NCBI RefSeq assembly: GCF_001913705.1
Contig: NZ_MKQD01000012.1
Span: 1-62,784 of the forward strand
Direction of reading: 5' to 3'
Source of the DNA: Thalassotalea sp. PP2-459
GTDB taxonomy: Bacteria > Pseudomonadota > Gammaproteobacteria > Enterobacterales > Alteromonadaceae
Length of the DNA: 62,784 nucleotides
The stretch's first letter is position 1. Each line of letters starts with the position of its first letter. The position numbers and the translations under genes are program-made. Of this stretch, positions 10,127 to 21,878 are shown one piece after another. The notes under the pieces were generated by a model, which saw nothing but the letters and a program-made list of their open reading frames with translations, was not told the DNA's origin and ran no database searches.

Positions 10127-12688
10127 ATGAAAAAAATACCTTTATTAGTCTTATCTGCATTGCTCACCAGTACAGCATCGGCAGATATCATAATTTCAGA
10201 ATACGTTGAGGGAAGTAGTTACAACAAAGCGATTGAGCTATTTAATACCAGCGCTCAAAGCGTCGATCTCTCTCAATATCAACTTGCCTTATACTTTAAT
10301 GGTAAAACGACAGCAGGAAACACCATTAACTTAAGCGGCACCATAGCCGCTAATAGTACTTTCGTGATTGCACATCGTGACATTGATAGCAGTGTTGCAA
10401 CCCAGTTAACAACAGGCAGTTTACTGTTTAACGGTGATGATGCTATCGTGTTAAAGAAAGCAAATACGATTATTGATTCAATAGGAAAAATCGGCCAAGA
10501 CCCTGGTAGCCAATGGGGTAGCGCATTAACAAGTACAAAAGACAATACCTTAGTGCGTAAATCTTCTATCAGCAGTGGCGATACAAACCCAAATGATGAC
10601 TTTAACCCCGCAGGCCAATGGATAGGCTTTGCAAAGAATACCCTTGATTCATTAGGCTCTCATCAGTTTGACGGTTCAACGGATAATGGAGACCCTGGTG
10701 ACGGTGACAATGGTTCAGGTGATGGTGGTGATGGTGATGGTGGAGATTCTCCAGCAACCAGCAACTGTGGTGATACATATACTAGCATAGCAAATATTCA
10801 AGGAAGTAGTAACAGTACCCCATTATCAGGGCATACAGTGTGGACAGAAGGTATTGTCACTCATACTCTTCAGCATACTGGTTATAAAGGTTTTTTCATT
10901 CAAAGCGCTGATCTTGAAGCAGACAATAACGCCATGACTTCAGAAGGTGTATTTGTTTATCACCAAGCTGATACAGTTGCCGTCGGCGATAACATTCGTT
11001 TACACGCGAAAGTTAGTGAATATAACAATTTAACGCAACTTTCTACGGTGACTGAGCTACAGGTGTGTCAAACTGCGGTCAGTTTGCCTGCTGCACAATT
11101 AGTTACTTTACCCCTTGATGCAACCCAACGAGAAGCACTTGAAGGTATGAGGGTTACCATAAAAGATGCAGTGATCACAGATACCTATAACTATGGCCGC
11201 TATGGTCAGTTCGAAGTTGCCTCTGAACGTTTATATACACCAACGCAAGTATCTGAACCTGGCGCTTCGGCCAATCAGTTAGCAATAGAAAACGCTGAAA
11301 AATCGATTCTTGTTGATGACGGTGAAACAGCACAAAACCCTGAAATGTTGCCCGCGCCAACGCCAGAGCTAAGTGCCATTAATTCATTACGAAGTGGTGA
11401 TACAATACCAACATTGACTGGTATCTTGTCATTTCACTTTACTAATTATCAAATCCTACCAACAACACCTCTTGCTACCCAAACCACCAATGCTCGCCAG
11501 CAAACGCCTACCATTACTAACGTGGGTAATTTACGAGTTGCAAGCTTTAACGTGCTTAATTACTTTAATGGCAATGGCTTAGGAGGTGGTTTTCCAACCG
11601 CTAGAGGTGCTAAAACCGAAGCGGAGTTTGTGCGTCAGCGTGATAAAATTATTGCTGCCATTGCAACCATTAACGCTGATATTATCGGTTTAATGGAAAT
11701 AGAAAACGACGGATACGGCGCACAATCAGCCATTGCCGATCTTACTCAAGGGATAAACGCTTACTTTAATGATAACGTTTATCAGTTTGTTGCTCCTGCG
11801 GAAAGTCAAATGGGAAGTGATGCAATAGCCGTTGGCATACTTTATAAAGCGAATTCAGTGACACCTGTTGAGGCTGCTAAAGTATTAAATAGCCAAAACT
11901 CTGCTAAAGATGAAAATGGCCAAGTACTATTCTTATCAAACAAGAACCGCCCTGTTGTAACACAGTTATTTAAACATCAAGCGTCTGAACAAGAAATTGT
12001 GATTGCGGTTAATCATTTAAAATCGAAAGGTAGTCACTGCAACAGCCTTAACGACTATGATAACAATGATGGGCAAGGTAACTGTAACTTAACGCGTACA
12101 CGAGCCGCTAAAGCACTTGGCTTGTTCTTAAATAAAGAATATGTCGAGCTGCCCACCCTCGTTATTGGCGATTTAAACGCCTATTTAAAAGAAGATCCTA
12201 TTGTTGCGTTAGCAAATGCCGGCTTTGATGACTTATTTACTACCTTAAATAAAGTGGATGCCTATAGTTATATCTTTGATGGACAACTCGGCCAATTAGA
12301 TCACGCGTTAGCTAATCAAGCTTTAGCACAGCATGTGGTAGATGTTGTCACTTGGCCTATAAACGCCGATGAACCTCGCGTACTTGATTACAGCATGCAA
12401 TATCAAAACGCGACACATCACGCAAAATACTACGCCCCTGATGCATTCCGTTCATCAGACCACGACCCTATTATTGTCGAAATTTCGTTAACACAAGACA
12501 GTATGTTTGGAGATTTAGATCAAGATTCTGATGTAGATACCCAAGACATCACGCTGTTTTTAACATTATCAGCATCAAATGAATTAACCGATTTAGCTTA
12601 CGACTTTAATAACGACAAACAACTCAACCGCCGAGATGTTCGCGGTTACATGCAACTGTGTACTCGTGCTCGATGCGCTACTGAATAA
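10127..12688 (+). CDS. exeM: ExeM/NucH-type extracellular nuclease with lamin-tail and dockerin-like domains
   Basis: An 853-residue secreted endonuclease. In order: signal peptide 1-19 (cleavage after TASA), a lamin-tail domain (about 20-165, IIISEYVEGSSYNKAIELFN), an Asp/Gly-rich linker (about 180-212), an OB-like ExeM domain (about 215-450), an endonuclease/exonuclease/phosphatase domain (about 465-785) and a dockerin-like module (794-853). Catalytic motifs seen are LMEIEND, VNHLKSKGSHC, IGDLNAYL and SSDHDPIIVE. The last module has two calcium-loop repeats, DLDQDSDVDTQD (796-807) and DFNNDKQLNRRD (826-837), then Cys845 and Cys850. ExeM of Shewanella digests extracellular DNA. Most ExeM proteins end in a GlyGly-CTERM or nothing; here the dockerin-like end takes that place. 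A cohesin-like gene follows after 20 bp. Confidence 0.92.
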   Translation: MKKIPLLVLSALLTSTASADIIISEYVEGSSYNKAIELFNTSAQSVDLSQYQLALYFNGKTTAGNTINLSGTIAANSTFVIAHRDIDSSVATQLTTGSLLFNGDDAIVLKKANTIIDSIGKIGQDPGSQWGSALTSTKDNTLVRKSSISSGDTNPNDDFNPAGQWIGFAKNTLDSLGSHQFDGSTDNGDPGDGDNGSGDGGDGDGGDSPATSNCGDTYTSIANIQGSSNSTPLSGHTVWTEGIVTHTLQHTGYKGFFIQSADLEADNNAMTSEGVFVYHQADTVAVGDNIRLHAKVSEYNNLTQLSTVTELQVCQTAVSLPAAQLVTLPLDATQREALEGMRVTIKDAVITDTYNYGRYGQFEVASERLYTPTQVSEPGASANQLAIENAEKSILVDDGETAQNPEMLPAPTPELSAINSLRSGDTIPTLTGILSFHFTNYQILPTTPLATQTTNARQQTPTITNVGNLRVASFNVLNYFNGNGLGGGFPTARGAKTEAEFVRQRDKIIAAIATINADIIGLMEIENDGYGAQSAIADLTQGINAYFNDNVYQFVAPAESQMGSDAIAVGILYKANSVTPVEAAKVLNSQNSAKDENGQVLFLSNKNRPVVTQLFKHQASEQEIVIAVNHLKSKGSHCNSLNDYDNNDGQGNCNLTRTRAAKALGLFLNKEYVELPTLVIGDLNAYLKEDPIVALANAGFDDLFTTLNKVDAYSYIFDGQLGQLDHALANQALAQHVVDVVTWPINADEPRVLDYSMQYQNATHHAKYYAPDAFRSSDHDPIIVEISLTQDSMFGDLDQDSDVDTQDITLFLTLSASNELTDLAYDFNNDKQLNRRDVRGYMQLCTRARCATE

Positions 12689-12708
12689 TCATTAATTAAG
12701 GGAAAAAC

Positions 12709-13233
12709 ATGAAAAATTTATTTATACTACTTTGCTTGTTTGTTGCGACAAACGCGAACGCTAACCTCATCTCGTTAAACAGCGATCAAGCGAGCTACAA
12801 TACAAACGACAACGTACTATTAAACATTGCCGTTGAACAAGTCGCAGCAGAAATGGCTACGCTTGAAGTTGACATAGCTTTTGATAATACCTTGTTATCA
12901 TTTGAAGATTTTGTTTTTGATTCTATGATGATGTCACCACCTTCACCTGCATTTGGCCCGTTATTTACTGACGTTACGTTAAGCCAACCGGGTTTACTTT
13001 CAGTAGCCGTTTGGTGGTTTGATGCCACAGAAGTGCCCTCAACTTCCTTTAATTTAGGTATTGCAGAATTTACAGCGCTTGCTTACTTTACCGCATCGTT
13101 TGACATTGCAGCAGTTAGACAATTTGATATCAACGGTGACGAGATTGTCAGTGCGATTAATGAACCTGCAACGGGCCTTTTACTATTCCTAAGCCTCTTT
13201 GCTTTGTTCCGTAAAAAGTACCATAACGCTTAA
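12709..13233 (+). CDS. Cohesin-like secreted protein with PEP-CTERM-like tail, partner of the nuclease
   Basis: A 174-residue protein with a signal peptide (about 1-18, ending ATNANA). Residues 19-145 form a beta-rich domain starting LISLNSDQASYNTNDNVLL and continuing ATLEVDIAFDNTLLSFEDF, which is the opening pattern of cohesin domains. The C-terminus is NEPATG, a hydrophobic stretch and FRKK: a PEP-CTERM-like sorting signal with NEP in place of PEP. It begins 20 bp after the nuclease with GGGA upstream, so the two form an operon. A second, similar protein follows the collagenase at 21324. Likely role, inferred: a surface-anchored receptor for the dockerin-like end of the nuclease. Confidence 0.75.
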   Translation: MKNLFILLCLFVATNANANLISLNSDQASYNTNDNVLLNIAVEQVAAEMATLEVDIAFDNTLLSFEDFVFDSMMMSPPSPAFGPLFTDVTLSQPGLLSVAVWWFDATEVPSTSFNLGIAEFTALAYFTASFDIAAVRQFDINGDEIVSAINEPATGLLLFLSLFALFRKKYHNA

Positions 13234-13248
13234 TCAAGGTTTCATCAT

Positions 13249-13279
13249 AAAAAAGCCCTGTTAATTAACAGGGCTTTTT
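13249..13279. terminator. Bidirectional terminator between cohesin-like gene and efpL
   Basis: AAAAAGCCCTGTTAA pairs with TTAACAGGGCTTTTT in a GC-rich stem with an A-tract on one side and a T-tract on the other. It serves both convergent transcripts. Confidence 0.92.
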
Positions 13280-13322
13280 CATCAATTGCGTTGTATAGTA
13301 ACGTTCACGTTAAAACAGAATC

Positions 13323-13895
13323 TTACTTATCACCACGCCCCATAAACTTTTTCTCATCGGTGTTAATTTTTACGATATCACCCGTTGAAATATGTTCAGG
13401 CACTTGAATAATTAACCCCGTTGAAAGTGTAGCGGGCTTCGTTCTTGATGTCGCAGACGCCCCTTTAATGGAAGGATCAGTTTCTAATACGGCTAACTCA
13501 ACGCTTGAGGGTAAGTCGATACCTACTGGAGAACCATCCACTAAAATTACCTGAACACCTTGAGTAGATTCATTGATAAACAGTACTTCGTCGCTAATAG
13601 ATGCTTTATTTAGGTTGTATGGTGTGTAATCTTCGTTATCCATAAACACATACTCTTCACCATCAATATAAGAAAACATGACAGGTCGTCGAATTAAGTC
13701 CGCATAGTTCAGCATATCTGAATCTTTAAACGTTTCATCGACTTTACCGCCTGTCACCACATCGTACATACGCATGCGATACAAACTTCCACCTGCTCTG
13801 CCCTGTGGCACTGAACGTTCAATATCTTTTATAATAAATACACCGCCATTGTGCTCAATAGCTTGGTTTTTCTTTACATCACTTGCCTTTGGCAT
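13323..13895 (-). CDS. efpL: Elongation factor P-like protein EfpL (YeiP)
   Basis: A 190-residue three-domain EF-P paralogue. It begins [18 protein letters not shown], and the C-terminal [18 protein letters not shown] and [15 protein letters not shown] are typical of YeiP. The tip loop of domain I has Arg33 ([11 protein letters not shown]), where EF-P carries a modified Lys or Arg. Arg33 and the longer loop mark the EfpL subfamily. EfpL rescues ribosomes stalled at polyproline and some other motifs. ATG at 13895 has AAGGAAA upstream. It is monocistronic, with a terminator on its 3' side. Confidence 0.93.
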
Positions 13896-13926
13896 GTTAT
13901 TTCCTTAAATGTTAAACAAACTTTTA

Positions 13927-14859
13927 TTAATCATTATAACTATTGTTAGCGAGAATATATGCCAAACCAGCATTAATCACCGTTGCTTGTGCTAAATTAC
14001 AATTATCAGTATCAACCTTAGGGCTGTCTGGGTAAACTTCTGTTGTGGTTACATATTTTGCGTCACTAAAGCCCATACATAAACCAAGTGGTCTAGCGTC
14101 ATAATTGATTACTCCGAACTGTTCTATCGTTTCGCCAATTAATCTATTTTCATCATCAGCGGGAGCAATATGCGTTATTTTAGCAACGGCATCTATTATC
14201 GCTTTTTGAAAAGCAGGTTGTGGTTTAGCTGTGTTAGCAACAAGGTAAAAGCCGTCAGGGATATTCCAATTATCATGTACCGTTGCATCTCTCGCGGCAA
14301 GCGCAGGTCTAAATTCTGAGTTATCGGTATCAGTGGTTTCGTGTAAATCAAAATGCGCTAGTAGCTCAACGCCTAACTCATCAATGAACGACATTAACTT
14401 TTCAGATTCTGGCGCAGGGCTTGGTTGATAAAAAGAACGGTTTGGATCAATCGCTAAAGGGTTCCAGCGATTAATCGTTTCATACCCCCACGGACTAACA
14501 CAAGGCGCAATGATAAAGTTGACCTGTTCATGAAAGTTTTCGGCAAATTGTTCTGCAAACAATAAAGCACCATGCACACCACTTGTTTCGTAGCCGTGAA
14601 CACCACCAGTCACCAGCACCGTTGGTTTGTTGTTAGTATAGGCTTTAGAAACTAACGCTAACAAAGGATAAGCTTCTTCGTTATAAGGTAAGGCACCGTA
14701 CTGTTTAACGGTAAAATGATCGGTTAATTGGTTTATTTTACTGACCACTTCTTGTTGATAACTTCGTTTTATTTGTTGTTTTTCACGCCATTGGGCTTTT
14801 TCTGCTGGCCCCCATTTAATACCGGGCTTGCCAATGGGGTAGAGAGTTTCGTTTTGCAT
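13927..14859 (-). CDS. M14 family zinc carboxypeptidase-like protein
   Basis: A 310-residue cytoplasmic metallohydrolase of the M14 superfamily (carboxypeptidase/succinylglutamate desuccinylase group). Zinc ligands are visible as His and Glu in TGGVHGYETSG (H-x-x-E) and His in LAHFDLHETTD. The Arg and Asn of DPNRSFYQP fit the substrate-binding NR pair. TTTEVYPDS contains the probable catalytic Glu. No signal peptide is present, so it acts inside the cell. It lies about 30 bp upstream of efpL on the same strand and may be cotranscribed. Substrate unknown: a peptide or an N-acyl amino acid are both possible. Confidence 0.87.
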   Translation of the reverse strand: MQNETLYPIGKPGIKWGPAEKAQWREKQQIKRSYQQEVVSKINQLTDHFTVKQYGALPYNEEAYPLLALVSKAYTNNKPTVLVTGGVHGYETSGVHGALLFAEQFAENFHEQVNFIIAPCVSPWGYETINRWNPLAIDPNRSFYQPSPAPESEKLMSFIDELGVELLAHFDLHETTDTDNSEFRPALAARDATVHDNWNIPDGFYLVANTAKPQPAFQKAIIDAVAKITHIAPADDENRLIGETIEQFGVINYDARPLGLCMGFSDAKYVTTTEVYPDSPKVDTDNCNLAQATVINAGLAYILANNSYND

Positions 14860-15064
14860 AGGTTAATCTGTATTATTCGTGCGTTGGCAAGATTATACCG
14901 AAAGCCATGTATTATTCATCCCTCAGTTTATGTTAATCGAAATTTTCACTATGTTTTGTTACATCTATTCTCGATTAAACGCCGAGAGTTTACGATAAAT
15001 TATACTTATATTGTATTGGATAGAGCGTTACACTAAAGCTATCTCTCGAAAGGATTTCTACGTT

Positions 15065-16150
15065 ATGTATAAGCAAATACTGTTTCTTCTCACCCTCTCT
15101 ACAATGTTGAGTAAGGTTATTATTGCTCAAGAGTATGAGACCATTGAACCACCAAGAAAATTAACAGAAAAACAAGCTGAAATAGCAGAGAAAAACTATC
15201 TTCAATATTGTGCTTTATGTCACGGTAAAGACAGACAAGGCCATGTGAACGACCATGCACCTTCATTAAAAAGCGCCAGTCTATTTCAGTCTGGTGTGCC
15301 TCATGCCATTTTAAGGCCAATGTCATATGGTCGAACTGGCACTCCAATGGGCGGCTATTTAGATGAGGTTGGTGGCCCTATGACATTAGAAGAAACATGG
15401 AACTTAACCTATTGGTTATTCGAAAAATCAGGCGTTGATCGGGTTAAATTGTCAACGAACCCTGTGCAAGGTGATATTAAAAAAGGCGAACGAGTCTATC
15501 AAAAAGAATGTTCAACTTGTCATGGCATCAACGGCGAAGGTATAACAGCTCCAGCTTTAGGAAATCCTTCAGCGCTAGCACACAACACCGATGAATTCAT
15601 TCGTTATGCTATTCGACATGGTAGGCAAAATACCCCAATGAAAGCTTATCAAGGGATTTTACCAGAGCAATCAATTAACGATATTACCGCTTTTTTACGC
15701 AGCAAAGCCAGTGGCTGGCAAGATAATAAGCCAGTATTAAAACAACTACCAACGCCTGCAGAATATGTGGTAAACCCTGAGGGTGAACACCCAAATTTCA
15801 CGCTTAAAGATGATCAATATGTGATGGCTGAAGACCTATATAAAGCCTTAGAAAAAAAACAGAAAATGGTATTATTTGATACTCGTGTAACCTCGGTATG
15901 GCAAACGGCTCATATTAAAGGTTCCGTGCCATTACCTTATTATGCAGATCTTGATGCTATGATTGCAGACATCCCTACAGACGTTCAAATTGTTGCTTAT
16001 TGTTCATGCCCGCGTGCTGCCGCTGATCATGTAGTCAATAAATTACGACATAAAGGTTTTACAAAAACAGCCGTTTTGTGGGAAGGTATTTTTGGTTGGA
16101 TGCACCTTGGCTTCCCTGTCACTCGTGGTGATTTATCCACCCTTGATTAA
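15065..16150 (+). CDS. Secreted dihaem cytochrome c fused to a rhodanese domain
   Basis: A 361-residue periplasmic protein. Signal peptide 1 to about 21 (MYKQILFLLTLSTML...IIA). Two class I cytochrome c domains have haem sites CALCH (49-53) and CSTCH (149-153), with distal Met candidates in the MGGYLD and MKAYQG segments. A rhodanese-like domain follows at about 250-361 with FDTRVTSVWQTAHIKGSVPL and a catalytic loop AYCSCPRAAA (Cys313, Cys315). The frame extends upstream to 15011, but the ATG at 15065 gives the signal peptide and has AAAGGA upstream. The fusion suggests sulfur or thiosulfate chemistry linked to electron transfer. It is followed after 29 bp by an aldo/keto reductase. Confidence 0.9.
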   Translation: MYKQILFLLTLSTMLSKVIIAQEYETIEPPRKLTEKQAEIAEKNYLQYCALCHGKDRQGHVNDHAPSLKSASLFQSGVPHAILRPMSYGRTGTPMGGYLDEVGGPMTLEETWNLTYWLFEKSGVDRVKLSTNPVQGDIKKGERVYQKECSTCHGINGEGITAPALGNPSALAHNTDEFIRYAIRHGRQNTPMKAYQGILPEQSINDITAFLRSKASGWQDNKPVLKQLPTPAEYVVNPEGEHPNFTLKDDQYVMAEDLYKALEKKQKMVLFDTRVTSVWQTAHIKGSVPLPYYADLDAMIADIPTDVQIVAYCSCPRAAADHVVNKLRHKGFTKTAVLWEGIFGWMHLGFPVTRGDLSTLD

Positions 16151-16179
16151 TCATGTAGATTATTGTTTTAGGAGTTTTT

Positions 16180-17232
16180 ATGAAGTATGTTCGGTTAGGT
16201 AGTAGTTCATTAGAAGTATCAAATGTTTGTTTAGGTACCATGACATGGGGTAAACAAAATATACAACAAGACGCCAATGAACAACTAGACTACGCGCAAT
16301 ATCACGGAGTGAATTTTATCGACACCGCCGAAATGTACGCAGTACCACCTACCGCTGACACTTATGGTAAAACTGAACGTATTATTGGTCATTATTTACA
16401 AGCTAATCCTTCACGCCGAGAAAATTTAGTCATTGCTACAAAAGCCGCTGGCCCTGGACTTTCATACATACGGGGTGGCTCAGAGATAACACGGAAAACG
16501 GTTATTCAAGCAGTTGATGATTCACTTAAGCGCTTAAGCACCGATCATATTGATCTATATCAGTTACATTGGCCGAATTACACCTCTCCTCACTTTGCTA
16601 AACATTGGCCAAATATGGTTGATTACACTGACGTGAACGCGACTGAAGAAATTGAGAAAATGCATGACATTCTGCAAGGGTTAGCCGACTGTGTTGCCGC
16701 AGGAAAAATTCGCTATTGCGGTTTATCAAATGATACACCTTGGGGAATAAATCAATATGTCAAACTAAGCGAGCAGCACAATTTACCGCGAGTTGTTTCA
16801 GTACAAAATGAATTTAATTTACTTCATACCAAAGATTGGCCGTATGTAATCGAAAACTGTATCCACGAAGATATTGCCTATTTACCTTGGTCACCATTAG
16901 CTTCTGGCGCGCTAACAGGTAAATACTTAAACGGAAGTAGACCAAAAGGTAGTAGATGGACCTTAATGCAAAGACATGGATTGTTTAGAGATACTGCGGC
17001 CGTTGAAAGCGCAGTTCAAAGCCTCAGCGATATTGCTAAGCAAATAAACCTTTCGCCAACTCAACTAGCGCTTGCCTGGGTTAGCCAAGTTAAAGGGGTA
17101 ACTTCCACGATTATTGGCGCTACAAATATGGCACAATTAGAGGAAAATATTGCTGCGTTCGAACTAACGCTTGATGAAGAAATAATGAAAAGCATTGAGC
17201 AATGGCTAAAAACTCATCCTTTCCCTTACTAG
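16180..17232 (+). CDS. Aldo/keto reductase, Tas-like
   Basis: A 350-residue NADP(H)-dependent oxidoreductase of the aldo/keto reductase superfamily, nearest the Tas group. The catalytic tetrad is visible as Asp48 and Tyr53 in NFIDTAEMYAVPP, Lys88 in VIATKAAG and His130 in LYQLHWPNY. The C-terminal cofactor-binding stretch VTSTIIGATNMAQLEENI is present. ATG follows TTAGGAG. It probably shares a transcript with the cytochrome-rhodanese gene; a functional link is not evident. A hairpin terminator follows. Confidence 0.92.
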   Translation: MKYVRLGSSSLEVSNVCLGTMTWGKQNIQQDANEQLDYAQYHGVNFIDTAEMYAVPPTADTYGKTERIIGHYLQANPSRRENLVIATKAAGPGLSYIRGGSEITRKTVIQAVDDSLKRLSTDHIDLYQLHWPNYTSPHFAKHWPNMVDYTDVNATEEIEKMHDILQGLADCVAAGKIRYCGLSNDTPWGINQYVKLSEQHNLPRVVSVQNEFNLLHTKDWPYVIENCIHEDIAYLPWSPLASGALTGKYLNGSRPKGSRWTLMQRHGLFRDTAAVESAVQSLSDIAKQINLSPTQLALAWVSQVKGVTSTIIGATNMAQLEENIAAFELTLDEEIMKSIEQWLKTHPFPY

Positions 17233-17264
17233 GGCGTAATTAGCAAGAGCGGAATAGATACAAA

Positions 17265-17293
17265 AATGCCTCATGCGTAAGTCATGAGGCACT
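17265..17293. terminator. Bidirectional terminator between aldo/keto reductase and PEP-CTERM genes
   Basis: TGCCTCATG (17267-17275) pairs with CATGAGGCA (17283-17291) around a 7-base loop. A-rich bases precede and CTTTAAA follows. The position between two convergent genes fits termination in both directions. Confidence 0.8.
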
Positions 17294-17314
17294 TTAAAGG
17301 TTTAAATATAAAAA

Positions 17315-18517
17315 TTAATGTAATCTTTTTCGATTCCAGATAAATAATCCGGTAACCAAAGCAAGTAACATCAACACAAAGGAACTAGGTTCTGGTATTT
17401 TCACCGGCTCAATGTTTTGCACCAATGATGGTGAAATTTTACGATTACTATCATCTGAAAACTGCGGTGCTTTAGTAAAGTTACTTTGTTGGTCTAACGG
17501 TATTTCATCACCGTTTGGTAAGTTATCATCAGACGTTGAACCACCATTGCCACCTTGAACAGGATTTGAACTTCCTGTGTTCATATCATCTAGAGTTGTA
17601 TCTTGATGTTCTTCACCTTCGGTTATATCTTCGAACAAATTATTGTTCGCTATATCATCAACATTATCGCCACCTTCGCCTGCCCCACCTTGAGTGTCAG
17701 AGTTGCCTTGACGAAATAACCGCTCAACAGACTGTTGAGCCAATAAGGTTGCTCTTTCTTTACCTAAAGAAAGTAAATCCATAGGTACAGAGGAGCCTAC
17801 AAGTTGTTCAGTAAATGATTCAGCAATATTATTACTAGCAAAAAACATTTGTGTCGATGAATTCGTTTGATTCAGAATTGGCGTCAATTGCTCAAAAGAG
17901 GTTCTATTAGCAAATGAGCCAGTTGTCATATTTCTTCGCGTATACGCTGTTGAAACTTGTGGGCTAATTGGGCTTACTGTCGCTGTACGACGCTCAAAAC
18001 TTCCAATATAACTATTGCCGACAAAACCCGTCAGCCATTGTTGGGTTTCACCAACAATTACACCACCAAGATCAGCAGAAACAAACTGCGGTGCAGCATA
18101 AGTATCAATTGCTAACGTCGGTTTATTCACTACATTAATGGTTAACGAAAATTCGGTCGCTCTTATATTCATCGTATTAACTACACGAACAGTAACAGCT
18201 ACATCTTCATCAACTTCATTGACGTATACAAACAATTCATTTTGATTAACAACACCTGAAACAGCATTATTATCACTTACCACTTCAAATGTTCTCCCAT
18301 GCTGATTAAAGTCATCAATGGGAATAGTAAACATAGTATTTTCATGTGCAAGTACACTATTGTTAGCAAGCCCTAACAATGAAAAATGTGCATTATCACT
18401 ATTAAAACCCGTTACTTTATTTGAAAAGTCGTAGATATTAGCCGTTGATATACCGCTAAAACCCAAGAACAGCACAAAGCTAAACGTTTTTTGTAGATTA
18501 AAAAGTTGGTCTTTCAC
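17315..18517 (-). CDS. PEP-CTERM sorting domain protein, c-di-GMP riboswitch controlled
   Basis: A 400-residue exported protein. It has an N-terminal signal peptide (about 1-26), an Ig-like beta region (about 60-140), a long Ser/Asn/Asp/Gly-rich low-complexity stretch (about 265-345), and a classical C-terminal PEP-CTERM signal: IPEPSS, a hydrophobic helix and WNRKRLH (374-400). Such tails are processed by exosortase and usually mark proteins of exopolysaccharide-forming surfaces. The start is GTG at 18517, preceded by GAGGA. A GEMM riboswitch lies in the leader, so expression is expected to follow c-di-GMP. No exosortase gene is in the window. The domain function is unknown. Confidence 0.85.
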   Translation of the reverse strand: MKDQLFNLQKTFSFVLFLGFSGISTANIYDFSNKVTGFNSDNAHFSLLGLANNSVLAHENTMFTIPIDDFNQHGRTFEVVSDNNAVSGVVNQNELFVYVNEVDEDVAVTVRVVNTMNIRATEFSLTINVVNKPTLAIDTYAAPQFVSADLGGVIVGETQQWLTGFVGNSYIGSFERRTATVSPISPQVSTAYTRRNMTTGSFANRTSFEQLTPILNQTNSSTQMFFASNNIAESFTEQLVGSSVPMDLLSLGKERATLLAQQSVERLFRQGNSDTQGGAGEGGDNVDDIANNNLFEDITEGEEHQDTTLDDMNTGSSNPVQGGNGGSTSDDNLPNGDEIPLDQQSNFTKAPQFSDDSNRKISPSLVQNIEPVKIPEPSSFVLMLLALVTGLFIWNRKRLH

Positions 18518-18597
18518 GATATGATCCTCGTTTGTATATAATTTACATAAACTATTAACGTCAATATGTAATGGTTACAACAGACAAGGATTGGGTA

Positions 18598-18685
18598 AGC
18601 TCAATTCTCTGCAGCCCCGCTACCATAGTCTTTACCTTAGGTCGGAAGCTTTGCGTATATGGGTTTCACCATACTTGCCTTTTAC
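18598..18685 (-). promoter_or_regulatory. Cyclic di-GMP-I (GEMM-I) riboswitch aptamer
   Basis: Read on the minus strand, the conserved elements appear in order: AAGGCAAG, a GAAA loop, ACGCAAAGCTTCCG, ACCTAAGG (tetraloop-receptor side) and ATGGTAGCGGGGCTGC. These match the Vc2-type consensus ACGCAAAGCCUCCGGCCUAA and GGUAGCGGGGUUACC. About 80 nt separate the aptamer from the GTG start at 18517. I see no clear terminator in between, so control could be at translation. Confidence 0.92.
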
Positions 18686-18689
18686 AAAT

Positions 18690-18965
18690 ATCAGTTAAAT
18701 AGTAATGTGTAATACGTTTTGCGTCAATAAAACGATCACTTTGTTTGAAAAAGCATCAATCATGCCAAGAACTAAAATTTAAATTCAAATTATGATTACC
18801 CATTTAATTGAGTGAGTAACAAATAATGCCTGCCTTTAATATCTATATCTCATAACAATAAATTAACGCTATTAACAAATCATTGATATTTATATTTTAT
18901 ACAATATACTTACGAGTGTATTTTATATACAAATAATAATAACGATGAAATAAGAAGGAAATAAC
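18690..18965. other. Divergent promoter region of PEP-CTERM and collagenase genes
   Basis: About 275 AT-rich bases without a gene. It must hold the promoter of the riboswitch-led transcript (minus) and of the collagenase operon (plus). Only the collagenase Shine-Dalgarno (AGAAGGAA before GTG 18966) is clear; no operator palindrome stood out. Confidence 0.5.
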
Positions 18966-21308
18966 GTGAAAATTCCACAACAGATACTCTGTGCTGGTTT
19001 AGCTGTTAGCACCTGTTTAGGTTATACAGCATTTGCTAGCGACCAAATCACACCAAAATCACTTTCGAAAGCTTCTGCAAAGCCTTTGCTAACATCACAT
19101 GCAGCAAAACAGTCACATGCAAGAAAACAACTAGACATTAGCCCACCAAGGCAAGTATCGCCTAAGCAATTTGAACAGTTATTACAGTCAAAACAGACGT
19201 TAAATGATCATTATCGAGCTAAGCCAAGCACACAAGTACGCTCTATGCAAACGCCTATTAAAGCTAAACTAAATACCGGCTGTAGCAGTGTAAACGAATT
19301 ACAATCCTTAACAGGTGATGCATTAGTAAATGCAGTCATTAACGGTGATTTAAATTCGTGTCTTTATGGATTATTCGACGCAAACCTTGTTGGCACCTCA
19401 GTCTTTTCAGATCAAAGTTTACAGACAATTGCTGATGCGATGTCAGATTTACTGTCTTATGGTTACGATGGTACAGATGTAACCAAAGCCGCACAATTGG
19501 AAAAATTAGTGATTTATTTACGTGCAATGTTTTGGGCTGAATCGGGCACTAATAGAGTGTTCGATGGTCAATTTACCAGTTCATTAGCAAACGTATTTAA
19601 CCAATATTTTTCGGGGCAAAATTTTTTTAATTACAATGGCTTAGCAACCAGAGATTTCATGGTTAGATATGAAATGCTTATTTTATTACGTAGCTCTGGC
19701 ACAAATAACCTCCCGTACTTAGTGCGATTAACAGAAAGTCTACTTGGGTATGCTTCAACTGTTAATCGGGCTGATGATTGGGGAGTATACTATGAAGAAA
19801 ATGGCGTTACCCAGATCTTGACACACTTATTTAATGCCTCAAGTGAAGATGCTAGTGCATTGGAACAATTGGTAAAAGATCAACCAGAATTACTGACAAA
19901 TTTATCTTCATTTGTATTAAATGAAGGCCAATGGCTCGTTGGTCACACACGAGAATATCAATGGGGTGATAGTGTTAATGAACTCGCTCGCTTTTTAAAG
20001 TTTGGTGGCATAATTGCTGACACTATTAGACCAACCATTATTACTATACTGAATAATTACGATTACCAGGGTGATGGCAGTACAGGCTGGTTAAAAGCTC
20101 AAACAGCTGTGATGGCTTATGATTCAGAAAATTGTGATCTATATGGTGACGCTTGTAGTTTCGATTTAGAAGCAGCCGTTTTATCGGGCAGCCATACCTG
20201 CAGTACAACGTTAAAATTACGCTATCAAGAACCCATCAATGAAAGTAATCGTGATCAAATTTGTTTACAGCTTGCTGAACAAGAAACCGCTTTTCATCAA
20301 ATGTTTCAAACAGCTAAAGATACGCCAGTAGCTAACGATCATAATACTGACCTAGAAGTCGTTATTTTTAGTTCGTACACTGATTATGACAACTACGCAG
20401 GAAATTTCTTCGGCATTGATACCGACAATGGTGGCATGTATTTAGAAGGTAATCCTGCTACACCAGGTAATCAAGCCCGCTTTATTGCACACCAAGCGAC
20501 TTGGTTGCCGACGTTCCAAGTGTGGAATTTACAACATGAATATGTACATTATCTAGATGGGCGGTTCAACCTATGGGGTAGCTTTTCAGATCAACCAGAT
20601 AACAGTGTTTGGTGGAGTGAAGGGTTAGCTGAATATCTTTCTCAACCAAATAATAACAGTAATGCATTAGCTGCTGCGGCTAATAAAACTTATGCGTTAA
20701 GTGAACTATTTCAAACCACTTATGCTAATGGTAATACAGAGAGAATTTATCATTGGGGCTATTTAGCAACACGCTTTATGATGGAGAAAAACCGTACCGA
20801 AATCGATAACACATTATTACCTACGCTTCGTGCAGCAAAATATGTGGTTTCTGAAGCAGAGTGCTCATTCGATTGGAGTTGGAAAACAAAAACAGAAGCC
20901 ATCGAAAATAATTGGTACTGGGCATATGACGATAGTGAGTGGGCAAGTGGCAGCTGGGTTTGGACATGTGGCCAACCGAATGTTGAACAACCAGAGCTAC
21001 CAAGTTATACACCTTACCAAGATATTATAACGGCATGGGGCGTCAACTTTGATGCACAATTTAACGAATGGTTAGATTGTATTATCGCAGGCAATGGTGA
21101 ATGCGTAGCTATAGTACATAATCCTGCTGATATTGACGGTAACCAATACGTTGATAGCCGTGACATTGCAGCCTTTAATTTAATGCTGCGCCAACAAAAT
21201 AATTTATCGCTAGATTACGACTTTAATCAAGACGGTATCGTTGATAGACGAGACATCCGCAGCATGATGGCATTATGTGATCAAGCCCGCTGTGCAATTA
21301 CCCAATAA
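18966..21308 (+). CDS. M9 family collagenase with C-terminal dockerin-like module
   Basis: A 780-residue secreted metalloprotease. Signal peptide is about 1-24 (ending TAFA). The N-terminal M9 activator-like helical region spans about 85-370 and the M9 catalytic domain about 380-700. Zinc ligands are His524 and His528 in HEYVHYLDGRF and Glu552 in WWSEGLAEY. Residues 721-780 are a dockerin-like module with calcium loops DIDGNQYVDSRD (722-733) and DFNQDGIVDRRD (752-763), and Cys771/Cys776. The loop spacing (30 residues) and the ending RRDIRSMMALCDQARC are almost those of the nuclease at 10127. Usual Vibrio-type collagenases end in PPC/PKD domains instead. GTG start with AGAAGGA upstream. A cohesin-like gene follows after 15 bp. 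Confidence 0.92.
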   Translation: MKIPQQILCAGLAVSTCLGYTAFASDQITPKSLSKASAKPLLTSHAAKQSHARKQLDISPPRQVSPKQFEQLLQSKQTLNDHYRAKPSTQVRSMQTPIKAKLNTGCSSVNELQSLTGDALVNAVINGDLNSCLYGLFDANLVGTSVFSDQSLQTIADAMSDLLSYGYDGTDVTKAAQLEKLVIYLRAMFWAESGTNRVFDGQFTSSLANVFNQYFSGQNFFNYNGLATRDFMVRYEMLILLRSSGTNNLPYLVRLTESLLGYASTVNRADDWGVYYEENGVTQILTHLFNASSEDASALEQLVKDQPELLTNLSSFVLNEGQWLVGHTREYQWGDSVNELARFLKFGGIIADTIRPTIITILNNYDYQGDGSTGWLKAQTAVMAYDSENCDLYGDACSFDLEAAVLSGSHTCSTTLKLRYQEPINESNRDQICLQLAEQETAFHQMFQTAKDTPVANDHNTDLEVVIFSSYTDYDNYAGNFFGIDTDNGGMYLEGNPATPGNQARFIAHQATWLPTFQVWNLQHEYVHYLDGRFNLWGSFSDQPDNSVWWSEGLAEYLSQPNNNSNALAAAANKTYALSELFQTTYANGNTERIYHWGYLATRFMMEKNRTEIDNTLLPTLRAAKYVVSEAECSFDWSWKTKTEAIENNWYWAYDDSEWASGSWVWTCGQPNVEQPELPSYTPYQDIITAWGVNFDAQFNEWLDCIIAGNGECVAIVHNPADIDGNQYVDSRDIAAFNLMLRQQNNLSLDYDFNQDGIVDRRDIRSMMALCDQARCAITQ

Positions 21309-21323
21309 TCCAAGGAATATATT

Positions 21324-21878
21324 ATGAAATCATTATTTATCAGTTTACTTACGTTTTTCACGTTAAATTGCCAAGCGACACTGCTAGAACTCAAAGTAGA
21401 TCAAGCATCGTATCAAGAAGGTGACACGGTAACAGCAACTATTGTCGCTAAAAACTTTCCCTATACCTTAGGTGGTTTCGCAGGTGAAGTAAGTTTTGAT
21501 GACAATGGGTTAGCGTTAACTAGCTGGCAGTTTGGTCAAGGTTTTGATGACGGTTTCGGTAGTTTCTCTTATGCCGATGATAGTATTTCAGGTTCACTTT
21601 ATCTTGAAGACTACGCTTATATATTTGCTGATGAACCAACCATCATAGCAAACCAAGGTAATGAATTCGTACTTGCTACTATCGCATTTACAGCGATGGG
21701 TGCTGGTCAACAAACCTTATCATTACTTAACGGGGTTGAAGTGCTTAGCTTTGATAATACAATGTTAGAACAACTCCAAGGCATGGCAGTTACCTTTGAT
21801 GTAACATCAGTACCAACACCTGCAAGCATTGCCTTATTTAGTATTGCGTTACTATTGCTGCATAGAGTTAAACGATAG
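21324..21878 (+). CDS. Cohesin-like secreted protein with PEP-CTERM-like tail, partner of the collagenase
   Basis: A 184-residue protein with a signal peptide (about 1-18). The beta domain opens LLELKVDQASYQEGDTVTA and continues GGFAGEVSFDDNGLALTSW, a good match to the cohesin pattern of strand, GDTV and a Gly-Phe-rich second strand. The C-terminus VPTPAS, a hydrophobic segment and HRVKR is a PEP-CTERM-like signal with PTP in place of PEP. It shares the L-x2-L-x2-DQASY-x3-D-x-V opening with the protein at 12709, though the rest diverges. It sits 15 bp after the collagenase (AAGGA upstream), followed by a hairpin. Likely the anchored receptor for the collagenase dockerin-like tail (inference). 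Confidence 0.77.
   Translation: MKSLFISLLTFFTLNCQATLLELKVDQASYQEGDTVTATIVAKNFPYTLGGFAGEVSFDDNGLALTSWQFGQGFDDGFGSFSYADDSISGSLYLEDYAYIFADEPTIIANQGNEFVLATIAFTAMGAGQQTLSLLNGVEVLSFDNTMLEQLQGMAVTFDVTSVPTPASIALFSIALLLLHRVKR

Follow-up and report, generated by a model that had tools for sequence, protein, structure and literature searches.

What connects two unrelated secreted hydrolases that end in the same short tail with the small secreted protein encoded directly behind each of them? The question is raised by two operons on contig NZ_MKQD01000012.1 of Thalassotalea sp. PP2-459, which we analysed as a single stretch of 62,784 nucleotides (the window, whose positions are used throughout). An earlier note, made from the letters of this stretch, had read the tails as dockerins and the small proteins as cohesins, and had proposed that exosortase sorting places the latter so as to hold each enzyme on the cell surface. 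The analysis reported here identifies a real, conserved and modular pair of enzyme and receptor, which is comparable to the contact made by one cohesin of a cellulosome and is not itself a cellulosome. We consider it likely that the pair provides one-to-one dockerin-cohesin anchoring at the cell surface or in exopolysaccharide, as an alternative to the GlyGly-CTERM system.

Tails and receptors of the two operons

All four genes lie on the + strand, at the ORF (open reading frame) coordinates given previously. The first operon opens with a secreted nuclease of the ExeM/NucH type (10127..12688; 853 residues) that combines lamin-tail and EEP nuclease domains. In a domain-profile search it scored 608.6 bits against NF033681 (ExeM/NucH) and also matched PF00932 and PF03372, and its sequence includes the motifs LMEIEN, GDLN and SDHDP. 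The second operon opens with a secreted M9 collagenase (18966..21308; 780 residues; PF01752, 291.8 bits), whose solved relatives in the PDB are collagenases (E 3.9e-83) and which carries the motif HEYVH at residue 524. Receptor 1 (12709..13233; 174 residues) follows the nuclease after 20 nt and receptor 2 (21324..21878; 184 residues) follows the collagenase after 15 nt. The description of two unrelated enzymes with one shared tail module, each trailed at 15-20 bp by a small secreted gene, is confirmed by these family scores and gaps and by the 48% identity of the two tails across 63 columns.

Each tail (tail 1, 12503..12685, 61 residues; tail 2, 21120..21305, 62 residues) is a module of about 60 residues with two putative 12-residue calcium-binding loops that begin at tail residues 4 and 34 and are thus 30 residues apart. 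After the loops both tails share the ending RRDxR..M.LC..ARC with its CX4C pair, as had been noticed before. In tail 1 the loops are DLDQDSDVDTQD (12512..12547), with T and Q at loop positions 10 and 11, and DFNNDKQLNRRD (12602..12637), with R and R; their counterparts in tail 2 are DIDGNQYVDSRD (21129..21164), with S and R, and DFNQDGIVDRRD (21219..21254), again with R and R. The cysteines of the CX4C pairs (CTRARC, 12659..12676; CDQARC, 21276..21293) may form a disulfide.

Against the Pfam dockerin family PF00404 the collagenase reached 18.0 bits, under the cut-off of 22.9, and the nuclease gave no match; several tailed relatives of the window enzymes do pass this cut-off. We aligned 79 tails (set A3), excluding those that lie within longer proteins with more than 10 residues beyond the match, and the resulting profile matched PDB dockerins across positions 1-50 of 60. 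As these matches stop at or before position 50, the CX4C end is an addition to the dockerin, and both of its cysteines are present in 79 of the 79 aligned tails. Within the loops, positions 1 and 12 are invariant, positions 3 and 5 are D or N in nearly all tails, and at position 9 the first loop has D and the second has N, D, S, H or T. The two 12-residue calcium loops that characterise dockerins are therefore found in the 79 tails and in the match of their profile to the PDB. A model of tail 1 (pLDDT 75.6) returned dockerin chains in all of its first 12 Foldseek rows.

The receptors have a common layout. Receptor 1 consists of a signal peptide (12709-12762), a predicted cohesin domain, which is the stretch that was modelled (12763..13155), and a PEP-CTERM-type end made of INEPATG, a hydrophobic stretch and RKK (13156..13230). 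In receptor 2 the signal peptide (21324-21377), like that of receptor 1 recognised by reading the sequence, precedes a cohesin domain (21378..21809) and an end with VPTPAS, a hydrophobic stretch and HRVKR (21810..21875). Receptor 2 scored 24.7 bits against the cohesin family PF00963, over the cut-off of 24.1, and is the only one of the four window proteins to pass a Pfam cohesin or dockerin cut-off; receptor 1 remained under it at 17.1 bits. The two receptors resemble each other (BLASTP, 41.2 bits, single-comparison E 1e-9) and have the opening DQASY...D.V in common. The domain of receptor 1 was modelled with AF2 from four sequences. The best of the five models had a pLDDT of 81.5 and a pTM of 0.76, and in the fold search with it the best 50 of 59 PDB rows (E <=0.001) were all cohesin-bearing chains by their titles, with a best E of 2.5e-7. 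A cohesin beta-sandwich is accordingly predicted by the model for receptor 1 and indicated by the PF00963 score for receptor 2, and the cohesin assignment of the earlier note withstood this check.

Taken as single sequences, the window modules appear weakly supported; the family profiles and the fold search point to the same assignment more strongly. Partner genes from other genomes were gathered at first by position and length alone, and 85 of them were then profiled. Two (L134 and L108) that had joined the training set of the HMM (hidden Markov model) by position and did not look like cohesins were removed from set A2. Searched against the PDB, the profile of the 85 partners found cellulosomal cohesins (best E 7.8e-18), and 35 of the 85 match PF00963 individually at E 0.01. 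In the rest of the Thalassotalea genome PF00963 detected one further place, at 13.3 bits and below the cut-off; since this family misses receptor 1, a divergent cohesin may exist elsewhere in the genome. The cohesin profile gave 6 matches at E 0.001 in the same genome; those listed, which extend to about 1e-22, comprise just the window's two.

Cohesin genes follow the tail, not the enzyme

To examine recurrence, 246 genomes were sampled evenly from the larger GTDB family of the window's organism and searched with a profile of the two tails, which matched in 115 genomes and in 36 of the 52 genera. From the better-scoring end of the matches listed, 120 regions were fetched. Together with the window they provided 135 tail rows, corresponding to 134 distinct ORFs (132 from the fetched regions and 2 from the window) in 84 genomes; in 72 of these genomes, one or more tail ORFs have the cohesin as next gene. 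Over the whole set, a cohesin is the next gene on the same strand for 102 tail ORFs, lies directly upstream for 10 and is missing within about 5 kb for 22; the median gap from tail ORF to cohesin is 23.5 nt. The linkage in other genomes that the earlier note had called for is thus present, and with this pair repeated at 102 of the 134 tail ORFs, we rejected the idea that the two genes had come together locally or by chance. Also rejected, in view of the 22 ORFs with no cohesin nearby, is the notion that every tail has its own cohesin. The proposal of one receptor per enzyme stands as the usual rule and fails as a universal one, given these 22 and some enzymes that seem to share a receptor.

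Three further observations were made on individual loci. At four of them (L135, L140, L141 and L147) a tailed subtilase-like protein is encoded directly behind the cohesin of another enzyme, as if sharing one receptor. At L117 (G113:C3:562654-562827) a 77-residue ORF is nearly all tail and has no cohesin nearby, possibly as a remnant. At L143 an ExeM relative continues for 49 residues beyond its tail, in a genome (G077) with neither an exosortase match nor a strong cohesin.

The device is centred on the GTDB family of the window's organism and has relatives beyond it. A scan at the level of the class matched in 16 of 369 genomes. Three of these belong to the family and 13 do not, and in six of the latter a cohesin-like ORF lies no more than about 1.5 kb away. 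When named genomes were searched with 12 closer tails, loci were found in Colwellia sp. E2M01 and Bowmanella pacifica only, both members of the Alteromonadales.

The enzymes that carry the tail are diverse. By similarity clusters, named from their representatives, there were 65 ExeM-like proteins, 19 M9 collagenases, 16 BNR_4 proteins (one representative being ulvan-lyase-like by PDB match), 12 porphyranase-like proteins, 5 M43 proteases and 4 subtilases. Rarer bearers, with one or two each, include GH42, GH59, GH98 and lambda-carrageenase among others; for the tailed GH42 and GH59 members no cohesin was found nearby. The M43 proteases (L039, L093, L095, L116 and L136) have an internal dockerin, 212-220 residues before their end, and keep the cohesin as next gene.

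As controls for the enzymes we used 80 of the 131 tail-negative genomes; none of the 80 was tail-positive. Relatives of the ExeM-like nuclease occurred in 41 of these genomes at 52 places, 30 of which were read. No dockerin end was present at 25 of the 30 loci, and at 0 of these 25 was a cohesin found, whether as the next gene or anywhere in the locus. The other five relatives (L173, L179, L180, L184 and L186) end in a different type of dockerin that has no CX4C pair, and in four of the five a cohesin-PEP-CTERM gene then follows. M9 relatives were present in 15 of the 80 genomes at 36 places; 30 were read, some of them sharing a genome or a gene, and for 25 the sequence in view extended to the ORF end and 400 nt or more past it. 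Neither a dockerin end nor a cohesin was seen at any of these 25 readable loci, and the other five showed no cohesin within their reach. By eye, GlyGly-CTERM-like ends were recognised on dockerin-less ExeM and M9 relatives (L158, L172, L237, L238 and L239), which indicates that the same enzyme families use other C-terminal ends.

The reverse test started from 20 cohesin genes picked by hand outside the fetched regions, others listed there not being taken. Eighteen of them adjoin an ORF that matches a dockerin profile, in 16 cases at its C-terminus and in two near its N-terminus; the remaining two (L218 and L224) have no such neighbour. Eight of the 20 loci match the first two-tail profile at E 0.001, so not all of them represent another type of tail. 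Three of the loci (L212, L213 and L214) encode proteins of about 625 residues with a QCTQNRCAVL-like dockerin end and an adjoining cohesin. Overall, the computation shows that the presence of the cohesin depends on the tail and not on the enzyme.

Cassette exchange and possible partner specificity

A clear case of tail and cohesin moving as a unit was found in genome G238. A nuclease locus (L054; PF04231 and PF03372) and a porphyranase locus (L055; PF18206) are alike over one block only, 751 bp long and 95.5% identical. The block starts 6 nt before the tail and stops at the stop codon of the cohesin gene, and its flanks have 13-29% ungapped identity. As this block from tail to cohesin is all that the two loci share, both parts have moved as one cassette. 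Nonsynonymous changes affect 1 of 61 codons in the tail and 1 of 125 in the cohesin domain, compared with 10 of 58 in the signal peptide and C-terminal end, so that the least change occurred in the parts presumed to bind. This exchange is a single instance: among the regions compared, every other pair with enzymes of unlike class was less close.

Specificity was approached through distances. The distances between tails and those between their cohesins are correlated across 102 pairs, with r = 0.59, a value reached by 0 of 1000 shuffles either within enzyme class (mean r 0.25) or within genome (mean r 0.34), in permutations that leave relatedness in. In 85 of the 102 pairs, the closest cohesin was that of an enzyme of the same class from a different genome. 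When the distance between catalytic domains is taken into account, the 52 ExeM pairs give a partial correlation of 0.405 and the 12 BNR_4 pairs one of 0.755, with 0 of 2000 permutations as high; for 17 M9 pairs it is 0.116 and not significant (445 of 2000 permutations as high), which speaks against specific addressing in the collagenases. In the 79 tails, loop positions 10 and 11, which we take to be the recognition positions by analogy with cellulosomal dockerins, vary widely and the calcium ligands do not. The partial specificity suggested in the earlier note is therefore no more than hinted at by the variable positions and the correlated distances, and for the collagenases no excess over the catalytic distance was seen.

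Co-variation and variable loop positions would allow pairs to be addressed individually. We tentatively suggest, at a little less than an even chance, that a mobile plug-and-socket addressing system operates in the family and in some other gammaproteobacteria, in which cassettes of dockerin tail and exosortase-sorted cohesin are swapped among unrelated enzymes, each pair addresses its own enzyme to the exclusion of other partners by means of its varied recognition positions, and several one-to-one tethers work in parallel in one cell.

Sorting, proposed anchoring and known systems

Both receptors of the window have putative PEP-CTERM-type ends that score weakly. Against TIGR02595 (cut-off 16) receptor 1 reached 13.1 bits alone and 15.5 bits in the genome search, where it was counted as 16 with in-frame neighbours. 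Receptor 2 is absent from the 20 TIGR02595 matches that this search gave, and its matches to the named PEP-CTERM families NF041538, NF041927 and NF038118 lie far below cut-off and cover mainly the C-terminal ends of those families. Across the partner family, 95 of 102 members fit a loose motif followed by a basic end and the remaining 7 look similar by eye; 37 of 85 match the Pfam PEP-CTERM family at E 0.01. The family as a whole thus has the motif, hydrophobic stretch and basic end of PEP-CTERM substrates, and an exosortase in the genome. In Thalassotalea sp. PP2-459 this enzyme is exosortase A (XrtA; 331.8 bits, cut-off 208), and the genome further contains a secretin of type II secretion and 17 PEP-CTERM matches that reach the cut-off, including one in a 21-residue frame. 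It has two GlyGly-CTERM matches, neither of them at a window enzyme; both enzymes end in the tail.

Between the two operons, a third PEP-CTERM protein of 400 residues is encoded on the - strand (17315-18517; TIGR02595, 20.9 bits). The ORF at 15011-16150 (+) appears to encode a protein with two CxxCH motifs and a rhodanese-like end.

Exosortases, counted over these related genomes as PF09721 matches at E 0.001, co-occur with the cohesins. A match was present in 179 of the 246 family genomes: in 105 of the 105 with a strong cohesin (E 1e-15 or better) as against 74 of the 141 others. Among the 115 tail-positive genomes, 110 had one.

Based on these results, we propose that the products of each operon are a plug and a socket: a secreted enzyme that degrades a polymer and ends in a dockerin, and a small secreted cohesin to receive it. 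The enzyme would be exported probably through Sec and type II secretion. The cohesin would also leave through Sec, be held by its C-terminal segment and be processed by exosortase A at the PEP-CTERM-type end, and the processed protein would be placed at the outer surface or in exopolysaccharide. Binding of the calcium-loaded dockerin to this cohesin would keep the enzyme near the cell, so that its products are not lost. An exosortase-linked, non-cellulosomal dockerin-cohesin pair, as the earlier note envisaged, is supported by the predicted cohesin fold, the linkage and the exosortase A score, and from it we infer binding and location.

Several points weigh against this proposal. The model of tail 1 had no PDB match below E 0.29 in Foldseek, one AF2 model of five was confident for receptor 1 (pLDDT 81.5 as against 47-55), and both PEP-CTERM ends of the window score at or under cut-off. 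The 22 tail ORFs with no cohesin nearby have a parallel in 19 of the 115 tail-positive genomes that have no strong cohesin. Five of the 115 have no exosortase match, and among the cohesin genomes G101 has a weak one (E 5.3e-5). The counts themselves favour the pair to some degree: the 120 regions represent the better-scoring tails, the HMM used for linkage was derived from the next genes themselves, and the cohesin profile includes the signal peptide and the PEP-CTERM end, so the co-occurrence with exosortase is partly built in.

The closest rival accepts the pair and differs in its destination. It is possible, though in our view not probable, that the exosortase releases the cohesin into exopolysaccharide or the medium, and that the enzymes are loaded into the matrix and not onto the cell. 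The published models of PEP-CTERM proteins, as far as two accounts cover them (PMC12188702, PMC1569441), leave their fate after processing open and allow attachment to the outer membrane or to polysaccharide, or release. Retention of products near the cell favours anchoring, which is an argument from use and not a decisive one.

The other rivals deny the small protein a role as anchor. It could inhibit the neighbouring enzyme or assist its folding, a suggestion that draws on the tight operons with a nuclease and with proteases, enzymes potentially harmful to their producer. The same cohesin family, however, stands beside unrelated enzymes and was not found in the controls beside the same enzymes when they had no dockerin end, and in G238 tail and cohesin moved without the catalytic domain; we regard such a role as most improbable, and rejected an enzyme-specific inhibitor on the strength of the dockerin-less controls and the cassette. 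Alternatively, the tail could serve secretion or stability and the cohesin be a passenger kept by the structure of the operon. Tails do persist in the 19 genomes with no strong cohesin and may therefore have a use of their own, but a second type of dockerin on five ExeM relatives is likewise accompanied by a cohesin in four of them, and 18 of the 20 cohesins of the reverse test have a dockerin-profile match beside them, which makes a passenger very unlikely. A cellulosome-like scaffold was rejected in view of the single-domain receptors: a scaffoldin has several cohesins and a carbohydrate-binding module, and proteins of 174 and 184 residues have room for one domain, with the limit that PF00963 could miss a divergent cohesin elsewhere in the genome.

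If dockerin-cohesin anchoring is correct, it would give some PEP-CTERM proteins, a diverse group that in the part of the literature consulted is described as having little homology to known proteins (PMC1569441), a concrete job. It would also explain how the digestion of algal polymers, collagen and DNA is kept at the cell, and would provide short binding pairs usable for enzyme display. The pair suggests a simple and swappable way to retain secreted enzymes at the cell. In the open-licence literature, subscription papers being mostly outside the scope of the search, we found no description of a dockerin-cohesin-PEP-CTERM pair.

Among known systems, the cellulosomes of Firmicutes (types I and II) share the predicted cohesin fold, the two calcium loops and the placement of the dockerin on a hydrolase. 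In the present pair, by contrast, each small protein holds a single cohesin, there is neither a scaffoldin nor a carbohydrate-binding module on the receptor, one operon encodes both enzyme and receptor, and the tail has a CX4C extension; the receptors also differ from cellulosomal anchors in their PEP-CTERM-type end.

The cohesin-like and dockerin-like modules of Archaeoglobus and C. perfringens are likewise used outside cellulosomes, and 2xdh, 2jh2 and 2vo8 are among our fold matches. A review on methanotrophic archaea calls the role of such modules unknown, and the part of it consulted does not describe an exosortase-sorted receptor with one cohesin beside each enzyme (PMC5244752). Here the likely partner is the next gene, the anchor belongs to a known sorting system and enzymes with other ends exist, so a non-cellulosomal role becomes testable with one deletion.

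Substrates of the PEP-CTERM/exosortase A system resemble the receptors in signal peptide, short motif, hydrophobic stretch, basic end and the presence of XrtA in the genome; the cargo here differs in being a binding module for a separate enzyme. Long-type ulvan lyases have a type II dockerin repeat, and ulvan-lyase-like proteins are among the tailed ones found here, whereas the portion of that report consulted mentions no cohesin partner (PMC11101340). Finally, GlyGly-CTERM (rhombosortase) anchoring of ExeM acts on the same enzyme families, but the enzymes described here have no sorting segment of their own and would rely on a second protein to be held in place.

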